NCBI RefSeq assembly: GCF_027942865.1
Contig: NC_134507.1
Coordinates: 35,579,711-35,643,710, forward strand
Source: Odontesthes bonariensis
Lineage: Eukaryota > Chordata > Actinopteri > Atheriniformes > Atherinopsidae
Reading direction: 5' to 3'
Length of the DNA: 64,000 nt
A program made the translations under genes and the position numbers. Under the pieces are notes generated by a model that was given only the letters and a program-made list of their open reading frames with translations, did not search any database and had not been told where the DNA came from. This document shows, one piece after another, positions 5,956 to 57,924 of the stretch (the stretch's first letter is position 1; each line of letters opens with the position of its first letter).

Positions 5956-6431
5956 TAGCCTAGCAAGCCAGACCTGTACAGCTTTTATTGACGCTGGATA
6001 GCAGTGTGGGCGGGATAAACGGTTGTCTGTCAAGTTGCGTCTGCACTCAACGCCACGGAATAGGATGGTGCAACAACCAATCAGAGCGTCGTCCCACCAA
6101 CAGAGCAAGCTGGTAAATTAAACTTTTACCGTACCCGGTGAGCAAAACTCCGAAAACGTCCTTTTTTTTCAAGAAAAACTTAAGTGCAGTTATCTGTTCG
6201 TCTCGCAAAGAAAATTTTATATTTAAATCTTCTAGAGTCGCTGCCAAAGCCAACTCGAAAGCCTGTTGGCTGGGCGCAGCCACTGTTTACCTCTCTCTGG
6301 AACTACACACTGAAACGTAGCACCTCTGTTGTCACTAGGTAGCCCGGCCCCGACCCCGCTCCTCACGATTTGATTGGCCTGATTAAGTTTCGATTTTCAG
6401 CCTCGCAAAACGACCACAAGTGACTAGACTA
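5956..6431 (-). mobile_element. Short element carrying RecQ-like helicase start (copy 1)
   Basis: Inserted in the hAT transposase gene. The left end reads TAGCCTAGCAAGCC, matching the TAGCCT start of two related elements at 7994 and 48896. The right border is less certain (GACTAGACTA at about 6431), and no target duplication could be identified. Minus-strand coding sequence encodes the N-terminus of a RecQ-like helicase only. Confidence 0.55.
6105..6283 (-). pseudogene. RecQ-like helicase N-terminal fragment (copy 1)
   Basis: Starts MAAPSQQAFELALAATL, followed by the RecQ-style Q-motif region (FSLRDEQITALKFFLKKKDV) and motif I GVLLTGYGKSLIYQL, a P-loop like the RecQ LPTGFGKSLIYQ. The third-position proline of the usual motif is leucine here. 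The helicase part stops just after motif I; motifs II-VI, RQC and HRDC are absent. ATP-dependent helicase activity is therefore impossible. In autonomous relatives this would be the first helicase exon (inference). Confidence 0.75.
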
Positions 6432-6954
6432 GCCCGGGAGCAAATTCAATTTGCGGTCGCTGGTCAGACACTCAGATTTGCCGAGAGACCAATTAAGTTT
6501 TCAAATTAATGTATGATTCATTGGCCCTTTGGCGAGCTACTTGGAAAGGGGCGGTGAGCTACTGGTAGCTCGCGAGCGACGTGTTGGAGACCCCTGCTCT
6601 GGAGGCACAACTGGCATACAACCATGCCCATGCCAGAACAAGGGCCCGGATAGAAATGACATTTGGCCTACTGAAGGCACGCTTTCAGTGTCTGACCCAC
6701 CTGAGAGTCAGCCCAGACAGGGCATGTGATATCATTGTGGCCTGTGCTGTCCTCCACAATGTGGCCTGCCTGAGAAAGGAGAGGGCCCCCAGAGTGCCAG
6801 CTCTCATAGACTGGGACATTCCTGCCATCTTCCCGGATGACGACTGTGGTCGGCTGGTCAGAGACCAATATGTGTTAAATTATTTTAATTAATATGCATG
6901 TTGATTTAATTTGGGCCTGCAATGGCAGAGGATTTTTTGTTAGGTTTTTGTGCT

Positions 6955-7025
6955 GTATAGGCAAGGCAATTTTATTTGTATAGCCCATTTTTACAAACAG
7001 TTTGTCTCAAACTGCATGCTGTGAT
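6955..7025 (+). repeat. LINE/SINE 3'-tail-like fragment
   Basis: Contains the phrase aaggcaattttatttgtata, a wording common in fish LINE 3'UTRs. It lies downstream of the Harbinger transposase stop. Short and of low certainty. Confidence 0.3.
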
Positions 7026-7585
7026 TCTGTGCTTTTTGTCTTGTAGAGCACTGTGTGACTTCAGTTTTGAACGGAGCTGATGGTTTACTTGCTTTGATTC
7101 ATCCTTGTTCAATAAAGGAACATCATGGTACTCTCTAATGTGTATTTATATTTATATGGTGATGTACTTTATGTGTAGTGTGTGGGAAACTAAATTATCT
7201 GATGATTGCAATTAATGATCACAAATGTTTCAATAATGATAGTGGGTATAGTTAAATGGTTTAACAATATGTTCTAGGCAGTGGAATAAATATTGGTTTC
7301 CATTTGTGGCGACCGCCGACTGAGATAAGGAATGAGATTAAGGAGATCCTGGAACTTAGCCTGGTCTGGAGCAGGCTAGCTTCACAGAATAAATCTCCAT
7401 GGTAACTTAGGTCTGAACATATCCCACTTCCATCCAACTTTTGTGCAACTGGATCACGGATAAGTTGATCCAGGATAGCCAACGTATCCTGGCTTAATCC
7501 CTTATCTTAGTTTTGTGCAAAGGGCCTCTGAAGCACTGCTGTAAACAGTTATGGCACCATGTTGACGTACATAATAACACCATAA

Positions 7586-7657
7586 GGCACAGCTGGGATT
7601 TGAACCCAGGATCTCCTGTTTACTAGACAGGCACTTTGACCAACAGGCCACAGCGCC
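7586..7657 (-). tRNA. tRNA-Thr (AGU anticodon)
   Basis: On the minus strand the cloverleaf begins GGCGCTGTGGCCTGTTGG. The anticodon arm CCTGT-CTAGTAA-ACAGG gives anticodon AGT (Thr), the T arm CTGGG-TTCAAAT-CCCAG is perfect, and the 3' end is CTGTGCC. One acceptor mismatch (T-T) is present and no T-run follows closely. Its downstream flank (about 7530-7585) matches the flanks of the tRNA-Thr genes at 31-32 kb, so it is a dispersed copy of that unit. Confidence 0.8.
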
Positions 7658-7697
7658 ACATGGTTCATAAAACTGATGAAAGAATAAAGAGCAGAGG

Positions 7698-7945
7698 TCC
7701 GTTTCACGTAGCAGGTTTAGTGAAAACTCTGAGTTGATTAACCCTGAAATAAGGGAAACCCTGAGTTTTCCGTTTCACAAAGGGAGGTAACTCAACCCAG
7801 AGAAAGAGGGGTAACTCTAGCCTGTTTCACACAGAGGTAACTTAACCTCTCGGTCAGTTACCGTAGTAACAGACTCTCTGAACCTAACCTGGTCGGGACC
7901 AGGTTTTATTCAAGAAACCTCGAGTTTCTTTCTGTCTCCGCCCTC
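7698..7945 (+). mobile_element. Harbinger-type MITE end (copy 1)
   Basis: Begins GAGGTCCGTTTCACG and contains AGTGAAAACTCTGAG, GGGAAACCCTGAGTTTTCCG and CTCGGTCAGTTACCGTAG. About 200 bp match 26533-26738 with few differences. The long-inverted-repeat element at 7950 appears inserted in or next to it. Confidence 0.6.
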
Positions 7946-7993
7946 ATTTAGCCACTGCGGTCACGCCATCTGCGCTTCGGAGAGGCACGCTCG

Positions 7994-8607
7994 TAGCCTG
8001 ATTAACATAGACTTTCAAATCTCTTCGAGATTCTGGTCTGACCAAGACCATAACGAATACGATTCGAAATGGCCTGGTCAACCCGCCTCCCTCGGGTTGC
8101 TACTGGTTGTGGCCAGAAAAGGCTGTGCCTAAGCTTAAGCCAATCACACCACTCTTTCCTCTGACGTATGATTTAGCTACCAGCGGGGCTAACTGGTAGA
8201 TTAAACTCTTACCAAAGCCAGTAGGGAGCAAGCCAGGCGAAAACGTCTTTCCTGTCAAGAAATGATTCAAGGGCTGTTCTTTGCTCGATTTTTAACGAGA
8301 ATCTCCCGTCGAACACTTTCATTACAGCATCTACAACAGTGTCAAAAGCTTGATGCTGCTCCATGTTGATATTGAATGAAGAGCTTCCGTGTACAATCCA
8401 TGGGTTGAGTGGCAGTTCAACCACGTCACTACCTTGAACCCGCCTCTACCCTGGGCCGTTGGCGCTGCTCAAAGTTGATTGCTTCCCGACAAAGTGGGTG
8501 GAGTTCCCATTTTTTCGGGAACTCGAATCCACCTGAATGAGCAGTTTGCCTGAGTAAGTGTAGCAGAGCCGAAGGTGTTGCGTCACTGCGAGGGCGGAGC
8601 CTGGGTA
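7994..8607 (-). mobile_element. Short element carrying RecQ-like helicase start (copy 2)
   Basis: The 614-bp insertion is flanked by a perfect 9-bp duplication GCACGCTCG (7985-7993 and 8608-8616) and lies in the left arm of the inverted-repeat element. The right arm shows the uninterrupted site. Ends are TAGCCTGATT and, inverted, TACCCAGGCT. Minus-strand coding contains a RecQ-like P-loop. Confidence 0.8.
8190..8364 (-). pseudogene. RecQ-like helicase N-terminal fragment (copy 2)
   Basis: From the minus-strand ATG at 8364 it reads MEQHQAFDTVVDAVMKVF, then FSLKIEQRTALESFLDRKDV. A frameshift in the next codons moves into LPTGFGKSLIYQ (about 8191-8226), the canonical RecQ motif I. The order and spacing equal copy 1, although the residues outside motif I are largely different. 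The helicase is cut directly after motif I. Confidence 0.75.
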
Positions 8608-9142
8608 GCACGCTCGCGCTAGCTACACTTGAAAATCGAGTGCCCGTTTACATCTCGTCGTACGGTAAAGCGTGTGAGTGGATTTATGGTGCATTCAAGT
8701 GCACCCCGTAAACTCAGAAATCTATATCAAAGTTGATTTTTCATTTGTTGGAGTATACACCTGTCATTACTTGGTTGTTTTTTTTACTACATTCTTTTTA
8801 ATGATTAAAACAAAATGATAGAACAAAATTATTGAAGCATATTCAGAATCAAACTCATTTCTGCATATTCAGATTTGAAAACTTCATTTAGAACCAAATC
8901 AAAATGTTCTCTCCACCAGATTCTTGTTCTACATGTCCCCAGCTACCTCTGTGGTGATTTTCAAGTTATTTCACTGCATCTTTGTTTAATAATCTGATGT
9001 TGAAATCATACCCAATGCATGATGTTTTAAAATATTAAAGATAAAATATTAGATTAACAGCAGATTAAAATATTAATAAAAAATAAAAAAAAACAATTGT
9101 TTTCTGCAAACTCCACCAGAATCTTCTTCTACATGTCCCCAG

Positions 9143-9158
9143 TATGTGTATGTGTGTG

Positions 9159-9202
<44 letters not shown>
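9143..9202 (+). repeat. (TG)n microsatellite
   Basis: TG dinucleotide run in the left arm of the inverted-repeat element. The right arm has the corresponding CA run at 10577-10602, shorter and interrupted by an AT. Confidence 0.9.
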
Positions 9203-9204
<2 letters not shown>

Positions 9205-9242
9205 ACCATATTCCTTATTGGACATCCAGCCCTACCTGCACC

Positions 9243-9461
9243 TGTCAGGGGGGTGTAGGGGAGGTGAAGGTAGGACACGGATGCGGACTTCAATATAGAA
9301 TACTGAGTTTATTAACAAAAACAAAGTACAAACAAAAAGCGCGGCAGGGCAGGGCGGGGCAGGGCGGGACGAGACGAGATGAGACGAGCAATGGCAAAAC
9401 TAAAAACCAAGACATGACCCGAAACACAAAAAACTTAAAACATGAGTCCATGGGCGTGACA
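9243..9461 (+). mobile_element. Possible solo LTR or short TG...CA element
   Basis: A 219-bp insertion beginning TGTCAGG and ending GTGACA, flanked by a 5-bp duplication GCACC (9238-9242 and 9462-9466). The opposite arm of the inverted-repeat element (around 10537-10550) has the uninterrupted sequence. TG...CA ends and a 5-bp duplication are the signature of a solo LTR, but no polyadenylation signal or family was recognised. A degenerate G-rich run lies inside at about 9340-9390. Confidence 0.55.
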
Positions 9462-10576
9462 GCACCAGATCCAAATCAACTTGTCATCTCTACCTTGTCT
9501 GCACCTCTCATCAGTGCACTAACACCCCACAGTGAGCAGTTTAATAAATACACCCTATCATAGTGGCCACTTGCATGGAAGATTTTGTTGAGAATTTGAA
9601 TAAAATGTCTTCTCAGATTCCCAAAGAAACTTAATATTGATAAATCTGATGTAGCAATCAGATTTAACATATTTAGAAATGATTTAACAGAACTATATTG
9701 AAGATCACATAATGAGGACATTACAGTTAAGCCGTTACACAACTAAAACTATAATTTATTTTCCATCCTAATGCCTACACTGAACTGTCGATATAGTGTG
9801 GCTATAGGTTTAAGGGTATAGGTGATCTATCTAGCTGTGTACAACATAAAATTGTTATCAAGAAATAGTTTATTTGCTGTGTCATATGAATGCAAACTTT
9901 TTCCAAAAAGCTGGACAATTAAGTTTAACATGGAGATGTGAAACTTAAAATAGGGAAATAAGTCAAAAAATGAAGGAGTGCAGATAAATAATGGAGAGAT
10001 ATGGTATATTTAACCCCATAAAACCACATCTCGATAAAATACATGGTATTACACAGGAACATCTGGGCAACAGCTGAAAAAAAAGGACAAATTGTTTGTT
10101 TTGTTTATTTAACAGTGTATTTTTTAATTCCAACATGAACAAAAGCTATGTCAGACGTAGCCGTGAACCTTGTGTTTGAAATCTCAATATTTAGGAATAT
10201 GCAGCAGTAAAGCAACATGAAAGCCAGGATAGGAGTATCTGGAGATGTGTTGTAGATTACATGCTGCATATATATTTGTCACATCCACTGTTGCTCTGAG
10301 CTCTGGAATTGCCAGTCCATGGTGCTAAAGCTCCACAACGTCCCATCATTTCAAGTCAAGAATCAGGTCATGCCTGGGCCTCCTTCATACACAGTTTTGA
10401 GTTAGCTTGCTTATTTTTTAAACTGCTCACTGTGAGGTGTTGTGGTGATAATTTCAGTTTGGTTCTGTCTCTTCCCTGTTTGGCTGTAGTGCACTGATGA
10501 GAGGTGCAGACAGGGTAGAGATGACCAGTTGATTTGGGCTGGTGCAGGTAGGGCTGGATGTCCAATAAGGAATATG

Positions 10577-10602: not shown

Positions 10603-11135
10603 AGGACATCAAGCAAGTAAAAGGCACAAATGGTGAAATGAAACCACATTATGAAAAAGGAAAGAAGAAGAGTGATATAAAGAGATGGGGGGATGTGACC
10701 GATGATTTCAGCATCAGATTATTAAAAAATGATGCAGTGAAATGACTTCAAAATCACCACAGAGGTAGCTGGGGACATGTAGAACAAGAATCTGGTGGAG
10801 AGAACATTTTGATTTGGTTCTAAATGAAGTTTTCAAATCTGAATATGCAGAAATGAGTTTGATTCTGAATATGCTTCAATAATTTTGTTCTATCATTTTG
10901 TTTTAATCATTAAAAAGAATGTAGTAAAAAAAAACAACCAAGTAATGACAGGTGTATACTCCAACAAATGAAAAATCAACTTCGATATAGATTTCTGAGT
11001 TTATGGGGTGCACTTGAATGCACCATAAATCCACTCACACGCTTTACCGTACGACGCGATGTAAACGGGCACTCGATTTTCAAGTGTAGCTAGCGCGAGC
11101 GTGCCTCTCCGAAGCGCAGATGACGTGACCGCAGT

Positions 11136-28262: not shown

Positions 28263-28894
28263 TAAACTTCTCAGGCACCATGGCTGACTTCTGACAGAGC
28301 CATCTGTTAAATTAATAGTATACTTCATATTTTATACATTTTGTCTTGTGGACAACTTTTCAGGCTCAAGTCTTTCCTCCTTGATTCGCTGCAGGTTGTA
28401 GTGCCTGAAAGGACTCAGTTTCTCCTGACACAGTGAGGGACCTATATACAGGGACCCATATTTCCTTTGATCCTTATTGTTGTGACCTTTGAGTTAGAAC
28501 TTCTTTTCAGAATTTAGCATTGACACAGTAGCAGTTTAAGTCAGAGCAAGTGTAAGAAGGCTAAATATACAGAGATGATTTATAACTTTCCACACGTTTA
28601 GGTCATGGCACCCCACTGTGAATATAAATGTAAAAAACACATTTCTAACACTTTGCATGAACCGTACAATAATGACAAGTTTGAGTTCAAGTTGTGTTGA
28701 ATTGTTTAATTATTATTTCATGTTTCTCAAGCTGTGGAGAGAAAACAGAATTAAATACAGTTCACAACACGGAATTCTCCTTTATCTGAATTTATACTAA
28801 CAAGCAAGACCTTGAAACGGGACACGGAAATCTTATTTCACTCCTTGGCGATAGTTGTCTTTTCATCTGACGACTGTATCCGCTACACAGAAGT
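28263..28894. other. Interval without recognised gene
   Basis: No feature recognised. Confidence 0.4.
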
Positions 28895-42079: not shown

Positions 42080-45000
42080 ATGTTGTTTAAGGTTTTCTTC
42101 AGGTGAGTCTTCATGTTTAATGGTTTAGGTTTTTGTTCTCCTATACACTAAAGTTTCTTTCTTTTCTTTTGAAATCCAAACAGGATTTCCTGGCTTTGTG
42201 TCCTGCTCTTCAGCATTGGAACATGTTATCCCCCCCAGAAAAGCAAGTATATCAACATTTAGGTGCACTTTATATAAAGGCAGCCAACATGGGAAGTTGT
42301 TTAGGAACAGGCACGTGCACAGATAGACCCCTAGTGGTGCTCAAGCACCTGCCCTTTTGCCCTGGATGAGAAAAGTGCCCTTTCTGCTGGTGCCCAATTT
42401 TTTTTATAAATATAATTTTAAAAAAATGACCTTTTCTGTCATCAATTCCCCCCAACTCTGTTTCGATATCTGACGGTGCATTTATTTGAGTTCTTGTGAG
42501 AATTTCGCCCCGACATGCACCGCGGCGCCCACAAGCCTCCCACGCGCCCTTCCCTCCTCCTCCTTCACTTACTGCCTACTGCGCGTGCAGTGCTGAGCGT
42601 CAGGCTAAACAGCTGAAGCCAACTTCTTCTCTGACTCGGAGCATCAGACAGACAGGTAATGACAGTGCAATACCCCGACGTTGTTTGGTGATAAATTAAC
42701 AACAACAATTAGCGCCGCTGAAAACATTACGTCGCAACTGGTCTGACGTTTGCTAAAAAACAAACAAAAAAAACCCTCACGAAATCCATGATTTAAAAGC
42801 CTTGCCCAGTTGTTTACTGACGTTTGTCATGTTTAATGAAGAGAGAGGGGAGGAGAGAGGCAGGCAGACATTAAATATTTTAATTATTGAAAAGAAAGGT
42901 AGGTCTTAAGTTGAGCTACATGACAGTCTGGTGAGGTAATGTGGTAAGCACCCCAAACCCAGAAGCAGAGGAAGCTGTCCATGTTCTTTGGGACTTCTAT
43001 GAGGAAAATGAGGACCAGCTGAAGACAGAGCTAAAGGTGTTCCACTCCAGCTTTCCCTTGAAGAACCTGCAAGAAATCCTTGCCATTGTTTAAGAGAACA
43101 CTGGCCAGCTCATCTTTCCAACATTTGTGAAGATGGTAAGGATCTATGCAACACTGCCAGTGACAACAGCTTCAGTGGAAAGATCCTTTTCAAAACTGAA
43201 GATAATAAAGACCAGGCTCAGGAGTCTCTGTGGGGAAGAAAGACTCTCCGACCTTCTCCTGCTTGCCATTGAGCACGACATTGAAATAAATCATGCTCCT
43301 GTGAAGATCCTTTAATTTATTCAGAGCAGAGTTTTAAGTTAAAAGATTTTTTTTATTATTTAACATATTATTTGGTTATACAATATGGCCTTGAATGAAT
43401 GAACCTTTACCAAGTCACAAGTACCAGCGAAATTGTAGCCATCAGCCCGTCTTTTTTTTTTTTGTCTGGCCTTGTTTTTGCCTATTATTCATTTATTTAT
43501 TCAATTTGATCATTTGAGTTAGTATTGGTTGCGTTAACAAAAATAAATATATACGTTGAAAATATCCGACTGTGTTATTTATTTATTTATCATTATTTTA
43601 ATTTCATGTATAATTTTGGCGATGGGTGCCCATTTTTTTGCTTGAGCACCTGCCCCCCAAAATGTCTGTGCACGTGCCTGTTTAGGAATGAGAGAGAAGA
43701 GGGTCTGCAACTATATTAATCATGCTGCACCAAATCTTCCAATATATTAGACTTCAGGTTTAATGACCCACTTGAACTGCAGATACTCCTTTAGCTTTGT
43801 TTTTGTTACTAAACATATTGGCAGTGATACAGAGGCTACTGAGAGCATGACTAACCATGCTGTCATACTCTGCTTCAACTAATTTCTGGGCTCAGGTCAA
43901 AACAGTGGATCCTCTGGCTCTGGTAGTAGCACGTCTGGGTCTGGCTACGGCAGCAGCGGCTCCTCTGGGTCTGGCTACGGCAGCGTCTCCTCTGGCTCTG
44001 GCTACGGCAGCAGCGGCTCCTCTGGGTCTGGCTACGGCAGCGGCGTCTCCTCTGGGTCTGGCTATGGCAGCGGCACCTCTGGGTCTGGTAGCGGCTCCTC
44101 TGGGTCTGGCTACGGCAGCGGCTCCTCTGGCTCTGGCTATGGCAGCAGTGGCTCCTCTGGCTCTGGCTACGGCAGCGGCGTCTCCTCTGGGACTGGCTAT
44201 GGCAGCGGCACCTCTGGGTCTGGTAGCGGCTCCTCTGGGTCTGGCTACGGCAGCGGCTCCTCTGGCTCTGGCTATGGCAGCAGTGGCTCCTCTGGCTCTG
44301 GCTACGGCAGCGGCGTCTCCTCTGGGACTGGCTATGGCAGCGGCATCTCCTCTGGCTCTGTCTACGGCAGCAGCGGCTCCTCTGGGTCTGGCTACGGCAG
44401 CGGCGTCTCCTCTGGGTCTGGCTACGGCAGCGGCGTCTCCTCTGGGCCTGGCTACGGCAGCGGCGTCTCTGGCTCTGGCTACGGCAGCGGCGTCTCCTCT
44501 GGCTCTGGCTACGGCAGCGGCGTCTCCTCTGGCTCTGGCTACGGCAGTAGCGGCTCCTCTGGCTCTGGCTACGGCAGCGGCGGCTCCTCTGGGTCTGGCT
44601 ACGGCAGCGGCGTCTCCTCTGGGTCTGGCTACGGCAGCGGCACCTCTGGGTCTGGTAGCGGCTCCTCTGGGTCTGGCTACGGCAGCGGCACCTCTGGCTC
44701 TGGCTACGGCAGCGGCGTCTCCTCTGGCTCTGGCTACAGCAGCGGCGTCTCCTCTGGGCCTGGCTACGGCAGCGGCACCTCTGGCTCTGGCTACGGCAGC
44801 GGCGTCTCCTCTGGCTCTGGCTACGGCAGCGGCGTCTCCTCTGGCTCTGGCTACGGCAGTAGCGGCTCCTCTGGCTCTGGCTACAGCAGCGGCGTCTCCT
44901 CTGGGCCTGGCTACGGCAGCGGCACCTCTGGCTCTGGCTACGGCAGCGGCGTCTCCTCTGGCTCTGGCTACAGCAGCGGCGTCTCCTCTGGGCCTGGCTA

Positions 45001-45582
45001 CGGCAGCGGCACCTCTGGCTCTGGCTACGGCAGCGGCGTCTCCTCTGGCTCTGGCTACGGCAGCGGCGTCTCCTCTGGCTCTGGCTACGGCAGCAGCGGC
45101 TCCTCTGGGTCTGGCTACGGCAGCAGCGGCTCCTCTGGCTCTGGCTACGGCAGTGGCGGCTCCTCTGGGTCTAATGCTGGCTTTACTGCGCAGGACGCAG
45201 ACTTTGCCCGTTTCCTTGCTGCCCTAATGAACTTGAAGATCGACCGTTCTTTCCCACAGTCTGCCTGGACCTCCGACCAGGTCCCTAAGGACACATCTGA
45301 GATGCGCGCTGTATACCCTTCATCCCACGTCGTCCAGTCCAGCAATGGCTACCAACGAACCCGCGACTCCAGTTCGTACGCCAAATACTCCCAGGATGCT
45401 TTTGACCACTTTGATGCCAAGACTGGGTCTAAAGGGCAGAAGTTGTAGTAAGGTAAAGCTGGACTAGTGTCTGAAGTATTGAGACTCCTGTATCAATACT
45501 GACCCCTTCATTTTTCTGCAGGTGACTCTCATGGACACTTCCATGGAGATTCCAACATGTGGCTGAGCTCTGGCAAAATAAA
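42080..45582 (+). CDS. Gene B: secreted Gly-Ser-Tyr repeat protein, 544 aa
   Basis: Coding exons are 42080-42102, 42184-42242 and 43896-45448. The terminal UTR exon starts at 45532, with AATAAA at 45577. The signal peptide is MLFKVFFRISWLCVLLFSIG. After YPPQKSQNSGSSGS come about 40 degenerate units of GSGYGSGVSS (30 nt) over residues 30-455. A unique 90-residue C-terminus follows (NAGFTAQDADFARFLAALMN, SYAKYSQDAFDHFDAKTGSK). The exon 2 donor must be GC (GCAAGT at 42243), since the only nearby GT site puts the repeat out of frame with a stop. Intron 2 holds a hAT insertion. The product resembles loricrin, silk or egg-coat-like structural proteins in composition only; no homology claimed. Confidence 0.8.
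42308..43680 (+). mobile_element. hAT element in intron 2 of gene B
   Basis: Ends CAGGCACGTGCACAGA and inverted CAGGCACGTGCACAGAC, with the 8-bp duplication TTTAGGAA at 42300-42307 and 43681-43688. Arm 2 has the uninterrupted TTTAGGAA (about 57700). A hAT C-terminus lies inside. Confidence 0.92.
43007..43315 (+). pseudogene. hAT transposase C-terminal remnant
   Basis: Reads LPVTTASVERSFSKLK, IIKTRLRSLCGEERLSD and LLLLAIEHD, the dimerisation block of the zinc-finger MYM/TTF-type hAT proteins. An upstream fragment (about 43007-43090) ends at an in-frame stop. The catalytic core is missing. Confidence 0.8.
43910..45175 (+). repeat. 30-bp coding repeat array in gene B
   Basis: Units of TCTGGCTACGGCAGCGGCGT plus CTCCTCTGG variants. 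A 138-bp higher-order block repeats near 44074 and 44212. All three plus frames lack stops for long stretches. Confidence 0.9.
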
Positions 45583-47208: not shown

Positions 47209-48128
47209 AGGGGAACTCCGGGGCATTTGAAGCGTGTTTCCATTGCTAGAGGTTGTCAAATACTTCTAGTAGGACACAGAGAGGTCCAGATCTGCGCTCC
47301 CTGTGTGGAGATCGCTCTGTCCGCACAGCCTGTCATGCGAGGCTAATACGTGGTGGCTAAGGGGCAAGCGCTAACCTTTCCACGTAAAACAACAACTTGC
47401 ACACTGCAGAAACGTCACACCACTTTATAACCCATCCGACAATAAAGTCACAAGCCTTACCATCAAAACCATATGCATGGTTCTCACATTACTGGTATGG
47501 GGACGTTACAAAACAGCTTTATAAACAGCATAGAACTCACTGGCTGGTTGTAGGCTCGCGCATGTGAAAGCCCAAAAGAGTCGATGGACGATAATCCCAT
47601 ATACAAAACAATTATATTCTCTAGAAAAACTACGTTCAAGTATTTAAAACATTACAACAATATTACTGGGCATGTATTGTTGTAATGTTTTAAATACTTG
47701 AACGCAGTTTTTCTAGAGAATATAATTGTTTTGTATATGGGATTATTCTCCATCGACTCTTTTGGGCTTTCACATGCGCGAGCCTACAACCAGCCGGTGA
47801 GTTCTATGCTGTTTATAAAGTTGTTTTGTAACGTCCCCATGCCAGTAATGTGAGAACCATGCATATGGTTTTGATGGTAAGGCTTGTGACTTTATTGTCG
47901 GATGGTTTATAAAGTGGTGTGACGTTTCTGCAGTGTGCAAGTTGTTGTTTTACGTGGAAGGGTTAGCGCTTGCCCCTTAGCCACCACGTATTAGCCTCGC
48001 ATGACAGGGTGTGCGGACAGAGCGATCTCCACACAGGGAGCGCAGATACGCACCTCTCTGTGTCCTACTGGCAGTATTTGACAACCTCTAGCAATGGAAA
48101 CACGCTTCAAATGCCCCGGAGTTCCCCT
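47209..48128. mobile_element. Foldback element, two 454-bp arms around 12 bp
   Basis: A 920-bp palindrome with ends AGGGGAACTCCGGGGCATTT, flanked by TTAA (47205-47208 and 48129-48132). Arms 47209-47662 and 47675-48128 are reverse complements with scattered substitutions and equal total length. Kolobok/piggyBac type by target site. Non-coding. Confidence 0.92.
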
Positions 48129-48156
48129 TTAAAAAGTCATTTAGACAAACGCTAAA

Positions 48157-48611
48157 AAACAACAAGCAAAACGAGTCAAAGCAGAACATCCTCTCCTGCA
48201 CTTCTGTGGGGTGACATAGTAGATGAAGAGATTCTGGAAAATGAGTCGGAGGGTTTCTACATATTTCCCTTTGAAAGTGGCAAAGAGGAAAGTTGTGAGG
48301 AACCCGCCAACAGGCCAGAAGCTGTAACAGCGAGCTCAGGAAACCATCAATCCCAGGTCTCTGCTGCTTCCAACACACCCAACACAGAAAATCTGCTGTT
48401 GTTAGAGGAGCAGTCAGAGGTCTCTGCTGCTGCTGGGACTCCTCACTTAGAGGATGTCCAGCTCCTGCAGAATCATCCCCAGGCCTCTGCAGCTCAACAC
48501 GCCAAGAGGAAGTTTACAGATTCAGGAAGCTGTCCCACTCCCTCTGTGGGCAGCACTCAGAGGGAGTTTTGTTGTCAGCTCAGAGAGCTGGACTGGACAG
48601 AAAGAGTCTAA
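48157..48611 (+). pseudogene. Open frame of unknown family
   Basis: An acidic, Ser/Ala/Gln-rich frame runs from after a TAA at about 48154 (SPALLWGDIVDEEILENESE, GFYIFPFESGKEESCEEP, then SQVSAAS and EVSAAAG repeats) to a stop at 48609-48611. Upstream the frame is broken by stops and by the foldback element, although KAKRLKNNT and KSHLDKR flank that insertion in phase. Part of it (48251-48370) is duplicated at 48773-48895. Not recognised; may be a decayed exon. Confidence 0.4.
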
Positions 48612-48772
48612 ATACAGATCAGGTTTCTACACATACTTCTGCAGCTGTCACTGAGCACTGATGTTGAAGATGATCGTCCTGTTGTGACCAGTTGTGGGTC
48701 AGACTAAATACAGAGCACCTTGAACTAATACATATCATCCTTTTCTTCAGTAAAGCATAAAGTATGTGTGAG

Positions 48773-48895
48773 GGTTTCTATATATTTCCCTTTGAAAGTG
48801 GCAAAGAGGAAAGTTGTGAGGAACCCGCCAACAGGCCAGAAGCTGTAACAGCAAGCTCAGGAAACCATCAATCCCAGGTCTCTGCTGCTTCCAAT
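48773..48895 (+). repeat. Duplicate of 48251-48370
   Basis: Nearly identical GGGTTTCTATATATTTCCCT to GCTGCTTCCAAT segment, the second copy of an approximately 520-bp tandem duplication. It is interrupted by the element at 48896 and resumes at 49496. Confidence 0.85.
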
Positions 48896-49495
48896 TAGCC
48901 TGGGCGAAAGCCGACTGTTGACTCTGTCAAACAGTCTGGGAAAACCCAAGAGGAATCCGTTTCCATGGAGGGCGGGACCTTACCCAGCAACTTAAATTCA
49001 TTGGAGTAACGGAGTTCCCTTGACCAATCATAATGTTTAGAAATGACGTTGGTTATGCGCCGAGGTTCATGCTTACTCTCGCGAGGCTCTAGCTCGCGAA
49101 TCACGCTTCCCACATCCGCTTTCATTATACCGGTACCATTTGATAAATCAAACTTTTCCCAAAGCCAGTTGGAAGGAGAGCTTCGACATCCTTGCCACTA
49201 ACAATATTGAAGAGGCATTCCTCTTGCTCTCGTTTTAATTGTGTAATGATCTCCAGAGTTGAGACAACTTCATGGATAGCTTCTAGCGTTCTTCTGTCGC
49301 CATGTTTATTTCCACTGCAGTTGAACTACAATTATATGGACTACAATGGACTCCGTGCGTGAGTTCTGTGTCACCACTCGCAACTGTTTGATGATTGGCA
49401 AAACACTGAGCGAACCGAGGTAGGGGGATTTGGCCAGACTATGTGCAGAGCCAAAATCTTTGGGCAGAAGTACGTAGGATGGCGTCGCCAGGCTA
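48896..49495 (-). mobile_element. Short element carrying RecQ-like helicase start (copy 3)
   Basis: A 600-bp element with ends TAGCCTGG and CCAGGCTA and a perfect 9-bp duplication GCTTCCAAT (48887-48895 and 49496-49504). The tandem duplicate at 48355 shows the empty site. Minus-strand coding contains a RecQ P-loop. Confidence 0.88.
49129..49302 (-). pseudogene. RecQ-like helicase N-terminal fragment (copy 3)
   Basis: The minus strand starts MATEER at about 49302 and shifts frame. It then continues EAIHEVVSTLEIITQLKREQ, EECLFNIVSGKDVEAL and LPTGFGKSLIYQMVP, a perfect RecQ motif I preceded by a Q-motif-like segment. Nothing of motifs II-VI follows. Third independent case of the same cut. Confidence 0.75.
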
Positions 49496-49619
49496 GCTTC
49501 CAATACACCCAACAAAGAAAACACATCTACACGTAGAGGCACGTCTACTTCTACACCAGTTCCTACGCTTATGCGGGTGACTCATGTAAATACAATATTT
49601 GATATAAACTCGTGTCAGC

Positions 49620-49940
49620 AACAGCCAGCATAACAGTGTGTCCTTAGCCAACGTACAAAGAAGCATAAACTAACGCTTCCCCAGCATCCTTTTGCAGCTT
49701 TATGGTGGAACCTCTGGGAGCTCCTTCTTGTTCAGGGTTTGACTCCAGTTCAGACTGATAGTGTTGTTCCATTCTACCAGAGTAACGTTCTTTTGACCAA
49801 CTTTCTTCCTCCCCCGCAGCTTGCTCGGCAGTTACCATGGTAACGAGAATCTAGCTTTCTCAAGAATTTTGACCAAAGCCTATCTCACACATTTCAGTAA
49901 GACCTCGGGAAATTGTACCAAAAAGGGCAAAACATGTCTC
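49620..49940 (-). mobile_element. End fragment of a TTAA element with short coding start
   Basis: The right end GGCAAAACATGTCTCCT is followed by TTAA (49941-49944), matching the AGGAGACAT family. The minus strand from 49838 reads MVTAEQAAGEEESWSKERYS, possibly the N-terminus of the accessory Kolobok gene. Confidence 0.45.
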
Positions 49941-50168
49941 CTTTAAAGGACCAATAAGAGCTAAATCTCAGACTCTACAGGCCTCAGTTAACTTGTTAAA
50001 TGTGTGAGTGGGTCGGTGTGAAAACTCAACATCTAGGCTGTTATTTCCAGCTCCTACATGTAACTGAAATTCCGAGAGAAACTCAGAATAAGTGCACAGC
50101 AATAGACAGTACAACGTTTGGCAGTGACTAAGTGCCTTTAGCACAGACAGGAGGGTGGAGCTGAGAGG

Positions 50169-50650
50169 TGATATTCAGTGGGTCTATATGATGAGATTAA
50201 TTCCATTATAGCTATGGTTGGGTTATGCTCCTTATTTGAGCAAGGGTAATTATCCTTGGCTATATGGCGGTGAATGAATCGAATCATAGGCACAAAGCAC
50301 GTCATTACCCGGTACGATAGGTGGCGCTGTACCCGTTTCAACTATTGCTAATAGAGCCACCTCCGGTTGACCTCTTCACCACAACCAACAACAACAACAA
50401 ACTCAGGCATTCGAGAAAGATGGCGAACGAAGGGCAAGATGACGCTACGTCCCTCTACATTTTGTTTGTGATGAGCTGCTTATTGCACAAACGCGACGCA
50501 CAACCGAGTTATCTCGGGGTCTTAATCCGATCGCGAGTGACCCGATCCGATCCGATTTTTTGTCAGATTAAGGTGTACACATGAACTTAATAAATCAGTC
50601 TTATTTTAATTTAGCCCTTAATCCGATTCTTTCAGTGCCATGTAACCTCA
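50169..50650 (+). mobile_element. DNA transposon family X, copy 2
   Basis: Same as 19484-20056 plus 21487-21540 but without the TTAA insertion. The coding start MANEGQDDATSLYILFVMSC is at 50420. Internally deleted. Confidence 0.6.
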
Positions 50651-50782
50651 CTTAATGAGGCTGATACCAGACCAACCAGATGAGCCTCCAGCGTCCACCT
50701 GTCCTGATAGTCCCTCACAAGCAGCTGTCTGTTGTTTAGCTCGTTAAGCTTTGATTGGTCTGGGCTGCTCTGTGGCATTATT

Positions 50783-50788
50783 TATAAA
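50783..50788 (+). promoter_or_regulatory. TATA box of gene C
   Basis: TATAAA 41-46 bp upstream of the gene C ATG; implies a very short 5'UTR. Confidence 0.6.
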
Positions 50789-50828
50789 CCTTCACCCTTG
50801 CTGTTTCCTCTCATAGCTTGTTTTCACC

Positions 50829-52294
50829 ATGACAGCTGCTGGGTTCTTCCTGAGGTATAAGCACAAGCTGCCTTTTACAGTTTTTGTTTGATTGGAAACA
50901 TTGGTTAACATTGCATTCTTACTCTTTGTTGTACATAATTTCAGGGTTTCCCTCTTTGCCTTGTTGACAGCTGCTACATGGGGTTTTCCCACTAAAGGTG
51001 TGCTATCATCTGTTGTGGTAAAACATTACATGCTTGCTTGAATCAGCTTCTGCTAAACTTGTTCTCATGCACCCAGGTTCAAAATCAGCAGGCCAGAGCA
51101 GCAGCGGCACAAGAGCTGCAGGTCATTTTGGCTCTTACCAGGGAGCAGCCGCTGGCCGCCCGGTGACCGTGCCCAACACTGCTTCCAGTAACACTTATAT
51201 GGCGACACCTGTGCTGGTCTCTGGTCAAAGTCAACCTGTTCTTCAGGCTGACCCAAGACTCAGCGGCTATGGCTCATTTGTGCCAACGCAATTGGTTGTC
51301 CAAGCTCCCGGTTTTGTCCAAGCTCCTGGCCTTTTCCAAAGTGCTCTTCAGGCAGACACAAGATTCAGCAGCTCTGGCTCCGTTGTGCCCGTGCAAATGG
51401 CTGTGCAAGCTTCTGGTGTCCCACAGGCTGTTCAGACGGGTCCAGCATTGAGCAGCTTGAGCTCTGGCCTGCCTGCAACAGGATACTCTACTGTCACTTA
51501 TGTGCCTGTTGACATGGGATCTGACGCTGGCGCTCTGCAACCTGGAGCTGCCCAACCTGGACCACAAGGTAAATCTTCTGCTTGGAGTGTAGATGGCCCA
51601 AAATATGTTTGGAGTGGAGCTTTTAAGTTTACATCCTAGGAAACTGGGATGTCAACACTCTGTGCTATCAGAGCTTCTGCTGTGAAAAGGACTAATGATG
51701 AAATGTCTCCACACAGAAACCCAGTGGGCTATCGCTCCCTCAGTCTTTGAGGATGCGTCAGCCCAAGCCCTACGCCTCACTGACGTTCTCCCTGCAGCCC
51801 CTCTGTCACCACCTGGCCCTGTCCTCCAGTCAGGGGAGACCTCCAGTGTCACGAAGGAAGCTGAACTCGGGAATTACCAGCAGCAGACGGAGGAATTCGG
51901 CTACCCGGATGATCGCCAAGGGTCTGGACCGGGATCCGCAACCGTACTGGTGCCACGCTTTGGTGTGGGTGGATCTCCTAACTTTGACTACAGGCTTTTG
52001 TACGGCTTGTACCCCTCTGGAACCTACAGCACCTTCAGCCAGCAGCATGAGAAGGGCAAAGACTACTTTCAGGATGTCCACTACTTGAAGGAGCATATTA
52101 CTGACAGCCATGGTTCTGGGCAGCAGAAAAAGTTCATCCCAAGTGCCCGCTAGAGCTGAACATGATGTGCAGAGGGTATGTTGAGTGGTACCTGCAAATG
52201 TCTTTATCTCAATGCTCTAACTAATCTGGTTCTGTTTCAGATTGAAAAGCTGAAACCAACGTTATAAGAAGATTCTTTTTAGTCTTTGAATAAA
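50829..52294 (+). CDS. Gene C: secreted Pro/Gln/Ser-rich protein, 335 aa
   Basis: Coding exons are 50829-50854, 50945-50997, 51077-51568 and 51717-52153. A UTR intron follows, with AATAAA at 52289. The product starts MTAAGFFLRVSLFALLTAAT, a signal peptide likely cut near WGFP. Exon 3 holds two imperfect repeats of about 35 residues (QPVLQADPRLSGYGSFVPTQ and SALQADTRFSSSGSVVPVQM) with QAPGFVQAPG-type runs. Exon 4 encodes an aromatic C-terminus (NFDYRLLYGLYPSGTYSTFS, then KGKDYFQDVHYLKEH). Exon layout and intron phases match A and B. It is the only gene seen in the spacer of the inverted duplication. Function unknown. Confidence 0.8.
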
Positions 52295-56839: not shown

Positions 56840-57924
56840 TTTTGCCAGAGCTCAGCCACATGTTGGAAGCTCCATGGAAGTGTCCATGAGTCACCTGCAG
56901 AAAACAGAAGGGGTCAGTATTGATACTGGAGTCTTAATACTTCAGACACAAGTCCAGCTTTACCTTAGTACAACTTCTGCCCTTTAGACCCAGTCTTGGC
57001 ATCAAAGTGGTCAAAGGCATCCTGGGAGTATTTGGCGTACGAACTGGAGTCGCGGGCTCGTTGGTAGCCACTGCTGGACTGGACGACGTGGGATGAAGGG
57101 TATACAGCGTGCATCTCAGATGTGTCCTTAGGGACCTGGTCGGATGTCCAGGCAGACTGTGGGAAAGAACGGTCGATCTTCAAGTTCATTAGGGCAGCAA
57201 GGAAACGGGCAAAGTCTGCGTCCTGCGCAGTAAAGCCAGCATTAGACCCAGAGGAGCCGCCGCTGCCGTAGCCAGAGCCAGAGGAGACGCCGCTGCCGTA
57301 GCCAGACCCAGAGGAGACGCCGCTGCCGTAGCCAGACCCAGAGGAGACGCCGCTGCCGTAGCCAGACCCAGAGGAGACGCCGCTGCCGTAGCCAGACCCA
57401 GAGGAGACGCCGCTGCCGTAGCCAGACCCAGAGGAGACGCCGCTGCCGTAGCCAGACGTGCTACTACCAGAGGATCCACTGTTTTGACCTGAGCAAAGAA
57501 ATTAGTTAAGGCAAAGTATGACAGCATGGTTGGTCATGCTGTCAGTAGCCTCTGTATCACTGCCAATATGTTTAGTAACAAGAAACAAAGCTAAAGGAGT
57601 ATCTGCAGTTCAAGTGGGTCAATAAACCTGAAGTCTAATATATTGGAAGATTTGGTGCTGCATGATTAATATAGTTGCAGACCCTCTTCTCTCTCATTCC
57701 TAAACAACTTCCCATGTTGGCTGCCTTTATATAAACTGCACCTAAATGTTGATATACTTGCTTTTCTGGGGGGGATAACATGTTCCAATGCTGAAGAGCA
57801 GGACACAAAGCCAGGAAATCCTGTTTGGATTTCAAAAGAAAAGAAAGAAACTTTAGTATATAGGAGAACAAAAACCTAAACCATTAAACATGAAGACTCA
57901 CCTGAAGAAAACCTTAAACAACAT
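56840..57924 (-). CDS. Gene B': short-repeat copy of gene B, 201 aa
   Basis: Coding exons are 57902-57924, 57762-57820 and 56965-57488; the AATAAA complement lies near 56840. Signal peptide and C-terminus match gene B. The repeat array has only about seven GSGYGSGVSS units, giving 343 fewer residues. The exon 2 donor is again GC (GCAAGT), in a 59-nt exon. The stop differs: the gene B TAG is TAC here, adding a Tyr before TAA. No transposon lies in its intron 2. Frame open throughout, probably functional. Confidence 0.8.
57240..57470 (-). repeat. 30-bp coding repeat array in gene B'
   Basis: About seven 30-bp units, more uniform than the array in gene B. Confidence 0.9.

Follow-up and report, generated by a model that had tools for sequence, protein, structure and literature searches.

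Short elements carrying the start of a RecQ-like helicase gene in Odontesthes bonariensis as probable deletion derivatives of AcademH-type transposons

Three short elements in the window analysed here, a stretch of 64,000 nucleotides from Odontesthes bonariensis (C2:35579711-35643710), are very probably internal-deletion derivatives of three different AcademH-type transposon families, judging from sequence comparison across the whole genome (945 Mb in 187 contigs). The elements, which we call E1, E2 and E3 (Table 1), had been picked out in a sequence-only reading by the beginning of a RecQ-like helicase on the minus strand. This start, running through the P-loop, is present in all three; it is broken by one frameshift in E2, and stop codons lie upstream in the frame. 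As that reading had supposed, they represent different subfamilies: E1, E2 and E3 belong to families F, G and A, respectively, each of which recurs in the genome.

Table 1. Coordinates in the window of the three elements, their coding remnants and their insertion sites
Feature	Position	Strand	Remarks
E1, right-truncated fragment of a non-autonomous element, family F	5956..6462	-	left end TAGCCTAGC genuine; right end missing
Helicase exon 1 remnant in E1	6086..6285	-	P-loop LLTGYGKSLIYQ; start approximate
E2 target-site duplication, left copy	7985..7993		GCACGCTCG, exact 9 bp
E2, 614-bp non-autonomous element, family G	7994..8607	-	ends TAGCCTGATT...GAGCCTGGGTA; TAGCCT start
Helicase exon 1 remnant in E2	8169..8365	-	P-loop LPTGFGKSLIYQ; one frameshift; start approximate
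E2 target-site duplication, right copy	8608..8616		GCACGCTCG, exact 9 bp
Empty site paralogous to the E2 insertion site	10895..11135	-	single exact GCACGCTCG; 97.9% over 241 bp
Empty site paralogous to the E3 insertion site	48249..48391	+	joined flanks 97.2% across the junction
E3 target-site duplication, left copy	48887..48895		GCTTCCAAT, exact 9 bp
E3, 600-bp non-autonomous element (MITE), probable AcademH-type family A	48896..49495	- (helicase sense)	ends TAGCCTGG...CCAGGCTA
E3 deletion junction	49128..49133		overlap of two parental arms, which share 2-3 bp; deletion of ~7.8 kb
Helicase exon 1 remnant in E3	49128..49305	-	includes P-loop LPTGFGKSLIYQ; start approximate, placed by hand from the parent
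E3 target-site duplication, right copy	49496..49504		GCTTCCAAT, exact 9 bp

Insertion sites and genomic copies

E3 opens with TAGCCTGGGCG, the TAGCCT start, and closes with GTCGCCAGGCTA. At least 40 full-length matches to it were found in the genome at 98-100% identity (own copy counted). The 9-bp target-site duplication is exact in all eight copies compared, which amount to five independent sites, four of the copies (L001-L004) being a single insertion within duplicated stretches of C2; pairwise identity among the eight is 98-100%. The target at the paralogous empty site in the window differs by one base.

E2 likewise has at least 40 matches at 98-100% (own copy counted). Its duplication is an exact 9 bp in 26 of 30 copies, with one or two mismatches in the other four, and 15 of the 30 copies are 98-100% identical to one another. 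We scanned the whole window for TA[GC]CC...GG[CG]TA termini lying 100-2000 bp apart and flanked by a 9-bp duplication with at most one mismatch; the scan returned E2 and E3 only, and repeating it with the flanks shifted by 10 different offsets found none each time. Given the duplications, the scan with its empty controls and the empty paralogous sites, E2 and E3 are real insertions. The claim of two elements with perfect 9-bp duplications and visible empty sites is thus borne out for these two, both empty sites lying in the window, and the duplications hold up across copies.

The case of E1, which has at least 40 genomic matches at 91-100% (own copy counted), is different in part. All three elements had been read as starting with TAGCCT and ending soon after the P-loop; the limits given held for E2 and E3, but the end placed at 6431 for E1 did not stand. 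We judged the boundaries from both ends of 10 other copies. The left end is genuine, since the sequences to its left are unrelated in three of the copies (on C14, C17 and C20). These same three relatives extend beyond 6431 to ...TTTCTAGGCT plus one base, followed by a target-site duplication that is an exact 9 bp in two of them and carries one mismatch in the third. The window copy diverges from them at about 6462, complete relatives run about 27 bp beyond its break, and no target-site duplication was found at its flanks. The remaining seven of the 10 copies (on C3, C27, C22, C28, C6 and C19, and one on C2) share both the left flank and the right break of the window copy, which indicates that the truncated form has itself been copied inside something larger.

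Surroundings of the elements

The stretches around E3 (47396-50995, L001; L002-L004) and E2 (6494-10107, L044; L045) recur on C2 between 33.4 and 38.9 Mb at 98-99% identity, insertions included; the region seems to have undergone segmental duplication recently and on a large scale. Fourteen of the best 40 matches to E1 fall at 32.6-39.6 Mb of the same contig. Elsewhere in the window, positions 43851-45445 hold long GC-rich arrays of short repeats that are open in several frames (Ser-Gly-Tyr-Gly type), a similar open frame lies on the minus strand at 56968-57501, and open frames at 3-2858 resemble by eye a LINE-type reverse transcriptase.

Full-length parents and their two genes

We traced parent elements by searching the genome with the RecQ profile TIGR00614. 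The search gave loci with two long open exons, none of them above the model's whole-protein cut-off, the exons having been scored singly. The parent of E3 (C23:30514301-30522661; 8,361 bp) has the ends of E3 and the 9-bp duplication GGAAAATTG on both sides, and a second full-length copy of family A on C19 (8,143 bp) is flanked by GGAAAGATC; the two are about 98% identical over their aligned parts. A helicase-bearing DNA transposon family, as had been suggested from the window, is confirmed by the parent, which has both termini and encodes the helicase in two exons, and the proposed genome search for full-length relatives yielded both family A parents.

Against the 8,361-bp parent, E3 aligns in two arms that meet at one junction: bases 1-238 match the left end (93.3%) and bases 233-600 the right end (92.7%). 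E3 is a MITE-type internal-deletion derivative: both of its ends are common to a longer coding element, the middle of which is lost. MITEs are short elements with many near-identical copies, formed as internal-deletion derivatives and mobilised in trans; the window elements resemble them in length, in their many near-identical copies and in sharing ends with a longer coding element, and a piece of coding exon remains in them owing to the subterminal place of the helicase exon.

Family A has two convergent genes, the helicase reading from the right end inward and a DUF6589 gene from the left end inward. The helicase coding sequence starts about 190 bp from the right end. Its first exon holds the P-loop and the DEAH box (donor ATG|GTGAGT) and its second the remaining motifs (acceptor TTTTAG|GTACC), both splice sites being good ones. 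The helicase exon had been called terminal, which is right as to its place in the element, though it is the first exon of the gene and not the last. The exons match PF00270 and PF00271 (DEAD and Helicase_C) above cut-off, and the GKS, DEAH and GRAG motifs were recognised by eye. Comparing exon 2 among families A, B and E gave pN of 0.32-0.36 against pS of 0.72-0.79, the pattern expected of a protein kept under selection.

The second gene matches PF20231 (DUF6589) with E-values of 2e-17 and 7e-24 in family A (L039 and L043) and 4e-27 in family B (L041), its reading frame being divided among several ORFs. It is presumably the transposase of these elements, and we infer that DUF6589 is the Academ transposase, an enzyme of DDD/E type. 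Of the two genes that had been expected between the ends, a RecQ-like helicase was found in two exons, while a transposase is present only on this presumption. A literature search found no paper naming DUF6589, and no viral relatives of the protein were confirmed in viral_contigs with two peptide patterns. The nuclease of AcademX is XPG; no XPG nuclease was present among the 12 ORFs of the elements scanned against Pfam.

Two further features adjoin the parents. The C19 element borders sequence (L043 1-177) that by eye resembles a C2H2 zinc-finger array. On C23, a 1,991-bp inverted repeat with 100% identity (L039 4380-6370 against 7911-9901) covers the family A parent's right end and continues past the stretch read; it is an artefact of the assembly or else an inverted duplication of very recent origin.

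Classification

Short terminal inverted repeats are an Academ trait. The ends TAGCCTGG and CCAGGCTA are perfect inverted repeats over 8 bp in both E3 and its parent, and those of E2 agree at just 6 of the first 20 positions. Two further traits of AcademH are present: a RecQ-type helicase, by its DEAD and Helicase_C domains and motifs, and a 9-bp target-site duplication, within the 9-10 bp range, in E2, E3, the E1 relatives and both family A parents.

The sequence-only reading could name no established superfamily with a helicase and 9-bp duplications, but AcademH fits: in the relevant passage of PMC10045372 it is linked to a helicase and makes target duplications of 9 or 10 bp. By such descriptions in citing papers, as far as the passages concerned go, the elements appear to belong with the AcademH type, which the window families resemble in having a RecQ-like helicase beside a second gene, 9-bp duplications and short inverted ends, a likeness of description. 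The window elements differ from AcademH in being short deletion derivatives and not full-length. AcademX, the classical Academ group of the same superfamily, is given in that passage a nuclease and duplications of 3 or 4 bp, against the helicase and 9 bp seen here; the length of the duplications rules it out, and no nuclease was found among the 12 ORFs scanned.

DEAD and Helicase_C domains together are assigned to AcademH, KolobokH or Helitron in an excerpt of PMC10799480. KolobokH shares with the present elements a RecQ helicase, which in both would lie within a DDD/E transposon, and Kolobok-1_CCri carries such a helicase on its complementary strand (PMC9587614, in the portion describing it), so that a Kolobok lineage also carrying a RecQ helicase might be considered; the same portion, however, gives Kolobok TTAA duplications and has KolobokH occurring only in fungi, against 9-bp duplications of varied sequence here. 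We regard this origin as extremely improbable and reject it on the 9-bp, non-TTAA duplications.

A superfamily of its own, combining a DUF6589 transposase with a RecQ helicase and separate from AcademH, would agree with the likeness to AcademH being one of description and with the literature search, which turned up no paper naming DUF6589, but the founding AcademH paper (Kojima 2020, Mob DNA 11:15) names animals and fungi in its title. The helicase and the 9-10 bp duplications are moreover features reported for AcademH itself (PMC10045372, in the passage cited above), and we consider a new superfamily very unlikely.

Position of the P-loop and deletion breakpoints

Searching at the protein level with the helicase segment immediately after the P-loop, we scored all 61 candidates, obtained 56 matches and read short stretches at 14 of the 56. 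Eleven match E1, six of them in one piece (375-382 bp, 90-96%) and the other five over shorter lengths or in pieces, with a lowest identity of 81.7%; the terminus TAGCCTAGAAATCT is present in eight of the 11. One stretch (C18:1351080) is 93.4% identical to E2 over 440 bp and begins with the right end of E2, TACCCAGGCTCC. The remaining two belong to family E and, matching it only, to family D. For E1 and E2 this comparison covers the helicase-side arm only, and their breaks were placed by the point at which the last residues diverge, since the stretches end 7 bp past the breaks. Family D (L031) was excluded from the breakpoint counts below, its apparent end recurring in the window without a second end. 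The recurrence, at 28475-28563, is an 89-bp segment that starts TAGCCTTCTT and is 95.5% identical to this apparent end of the helicase locus in family D; no second end matching it was found.

In each of the six families with an end that we could place, the distance from that end to the P-loop codons is about 330-415 bp. Counted in nucleotides from the helicase-side end, PTGxGKS occupies 328-348 in family A, 394-414 in B, 331-351 in C, 380-400 in E, 346-366 in F and 380-400 in G. This agrees with the suggestion that the helicase exon simply forms the end of the element. Because the short elements contain the first helicase exon only, they could also be unrelated MITEs that took up fragments of a host RecQ gene, a reading that we find barely credible: the same exon is carried by seven families (A-G), with the P-loop at a similar distance from the end in the six placed, and a full-length parent, both of its ends included, has the helicase gene in two exons. 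Host gene capture is rejected on the strength of the family A parents.

With the P-loop so near the end, a deletion that keeps the helicase-side end may keep the P-loop codons too. The breaks of the window elements lie about 370 (E3), 402 (E1) and 439 nt (E2) from the helicase-side end; measured from the GKS codons, the break comes 24 nt further on in E3 and 36 nt further on in both E1 and E2. That three families all break some 24-36 nt past these codons would be expected if the P-loop-coding DNA were a cis element, a binding site or enhancer required in every mobile derivative, and a need for the exon in cis had been proposed. For families B, C and E, we used 900 bp from the helicase-side end as a query against the genome and tabulated breakpoints in the best 40 of the first-look candidates for each (565, 1846 and 877, respectively). 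In family B, 32 of the best 40 end before the P-loop motif, mostly at 308 (21) and 291 (9), and eight keep the motif. In family C, 32 of the best 40 end before the motif (324-329), four inside it and four keep it. Among the best 40 of family E (L011), 35 end before the motif, three inside it (388) and two keep it; breaks recur at 388 (three), 327 (12), 262-273 (10) and 213-222 (12), with a single break at 246.

Altogether 99 of these 120 matches (best 40 per family, full-length copies included) end before the P-loop, seven inside it and 14 keep it. Tables of the best 40 favour longer matches, and the share of derivatives without a P-loop is thus if anything understated. The same breakpoints occur on many chromosomes, which suggests that the partial matches are two-ended deletion derivatives. 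Such recurrent derivatives without a P-loop refute a general need for it in cis, and a required cis element is most unlikely also in that the three window cases were picked out by a reader through their recognisable motif. The three were indeed noticed because each keeps that motif. The breakpoints differ among the tables for families B, C and E, so the position of the break is variable, and the view that the elements were all cut at the same place holds for E1-E3 and fails for most copies listed in those three families. That the three window breaks fall so close together is a small coincidence, not fully explained. The shortest breaks lie just 213 bp from the end (family E, best 40 of 877), and the recurrent breakpoint groups of this family may indicate the shortest end that still allows movement.

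It is also conceivable, at a very low probability, that the helicase promoter and first exon retained in E1-E3 are active, the short copies being transcribed and their truncated start or small RNAs regulating full-length elements. If true, this would account for three families having settled independently on a break just past the P-loop.

Proposed origin and implications

Derivation from AcademH-type parents by internal deletion would run as follows. A full-length element of family A (8.1-8.4 kb) carries the DUF6589 gene, its presumed transposase, at the left end and the convergent two-exon helicase at the right. In E3, as the two arms aligned above show, an internal deletion brought together some 235 bp from the transposase side and some 370 bp from the helicase side; E1 and E2, whose retained helicase-side arms measure about 400 and 440 bp, would likewise owe their other arm to parental elements. 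The right arm happens to include the P-loop, since in family A helicase coding begins some 190 bp inside the right end and the P-loop lies at about 330-415 bp. Faulty gap repair or replication may have produced the deletions. The short copies would then have been moved in trans by the transposase of full-length relatives, perhaps with their helicase, the target being cut with a stagger of 9 bp, to judge from the duplications.

Elements that seem to hold only the start of a RecQ gene would thus be leftovers of larger, helicase-bearing transposons of the AcademH type, and they leave the classification of known transposons unchanged. This one genome holds several such families, with long open helicase frames in full-length copies and short copies that are 98-100% identical, and would be a good place to study the superfamily, for example whether its movement needs the helicase.
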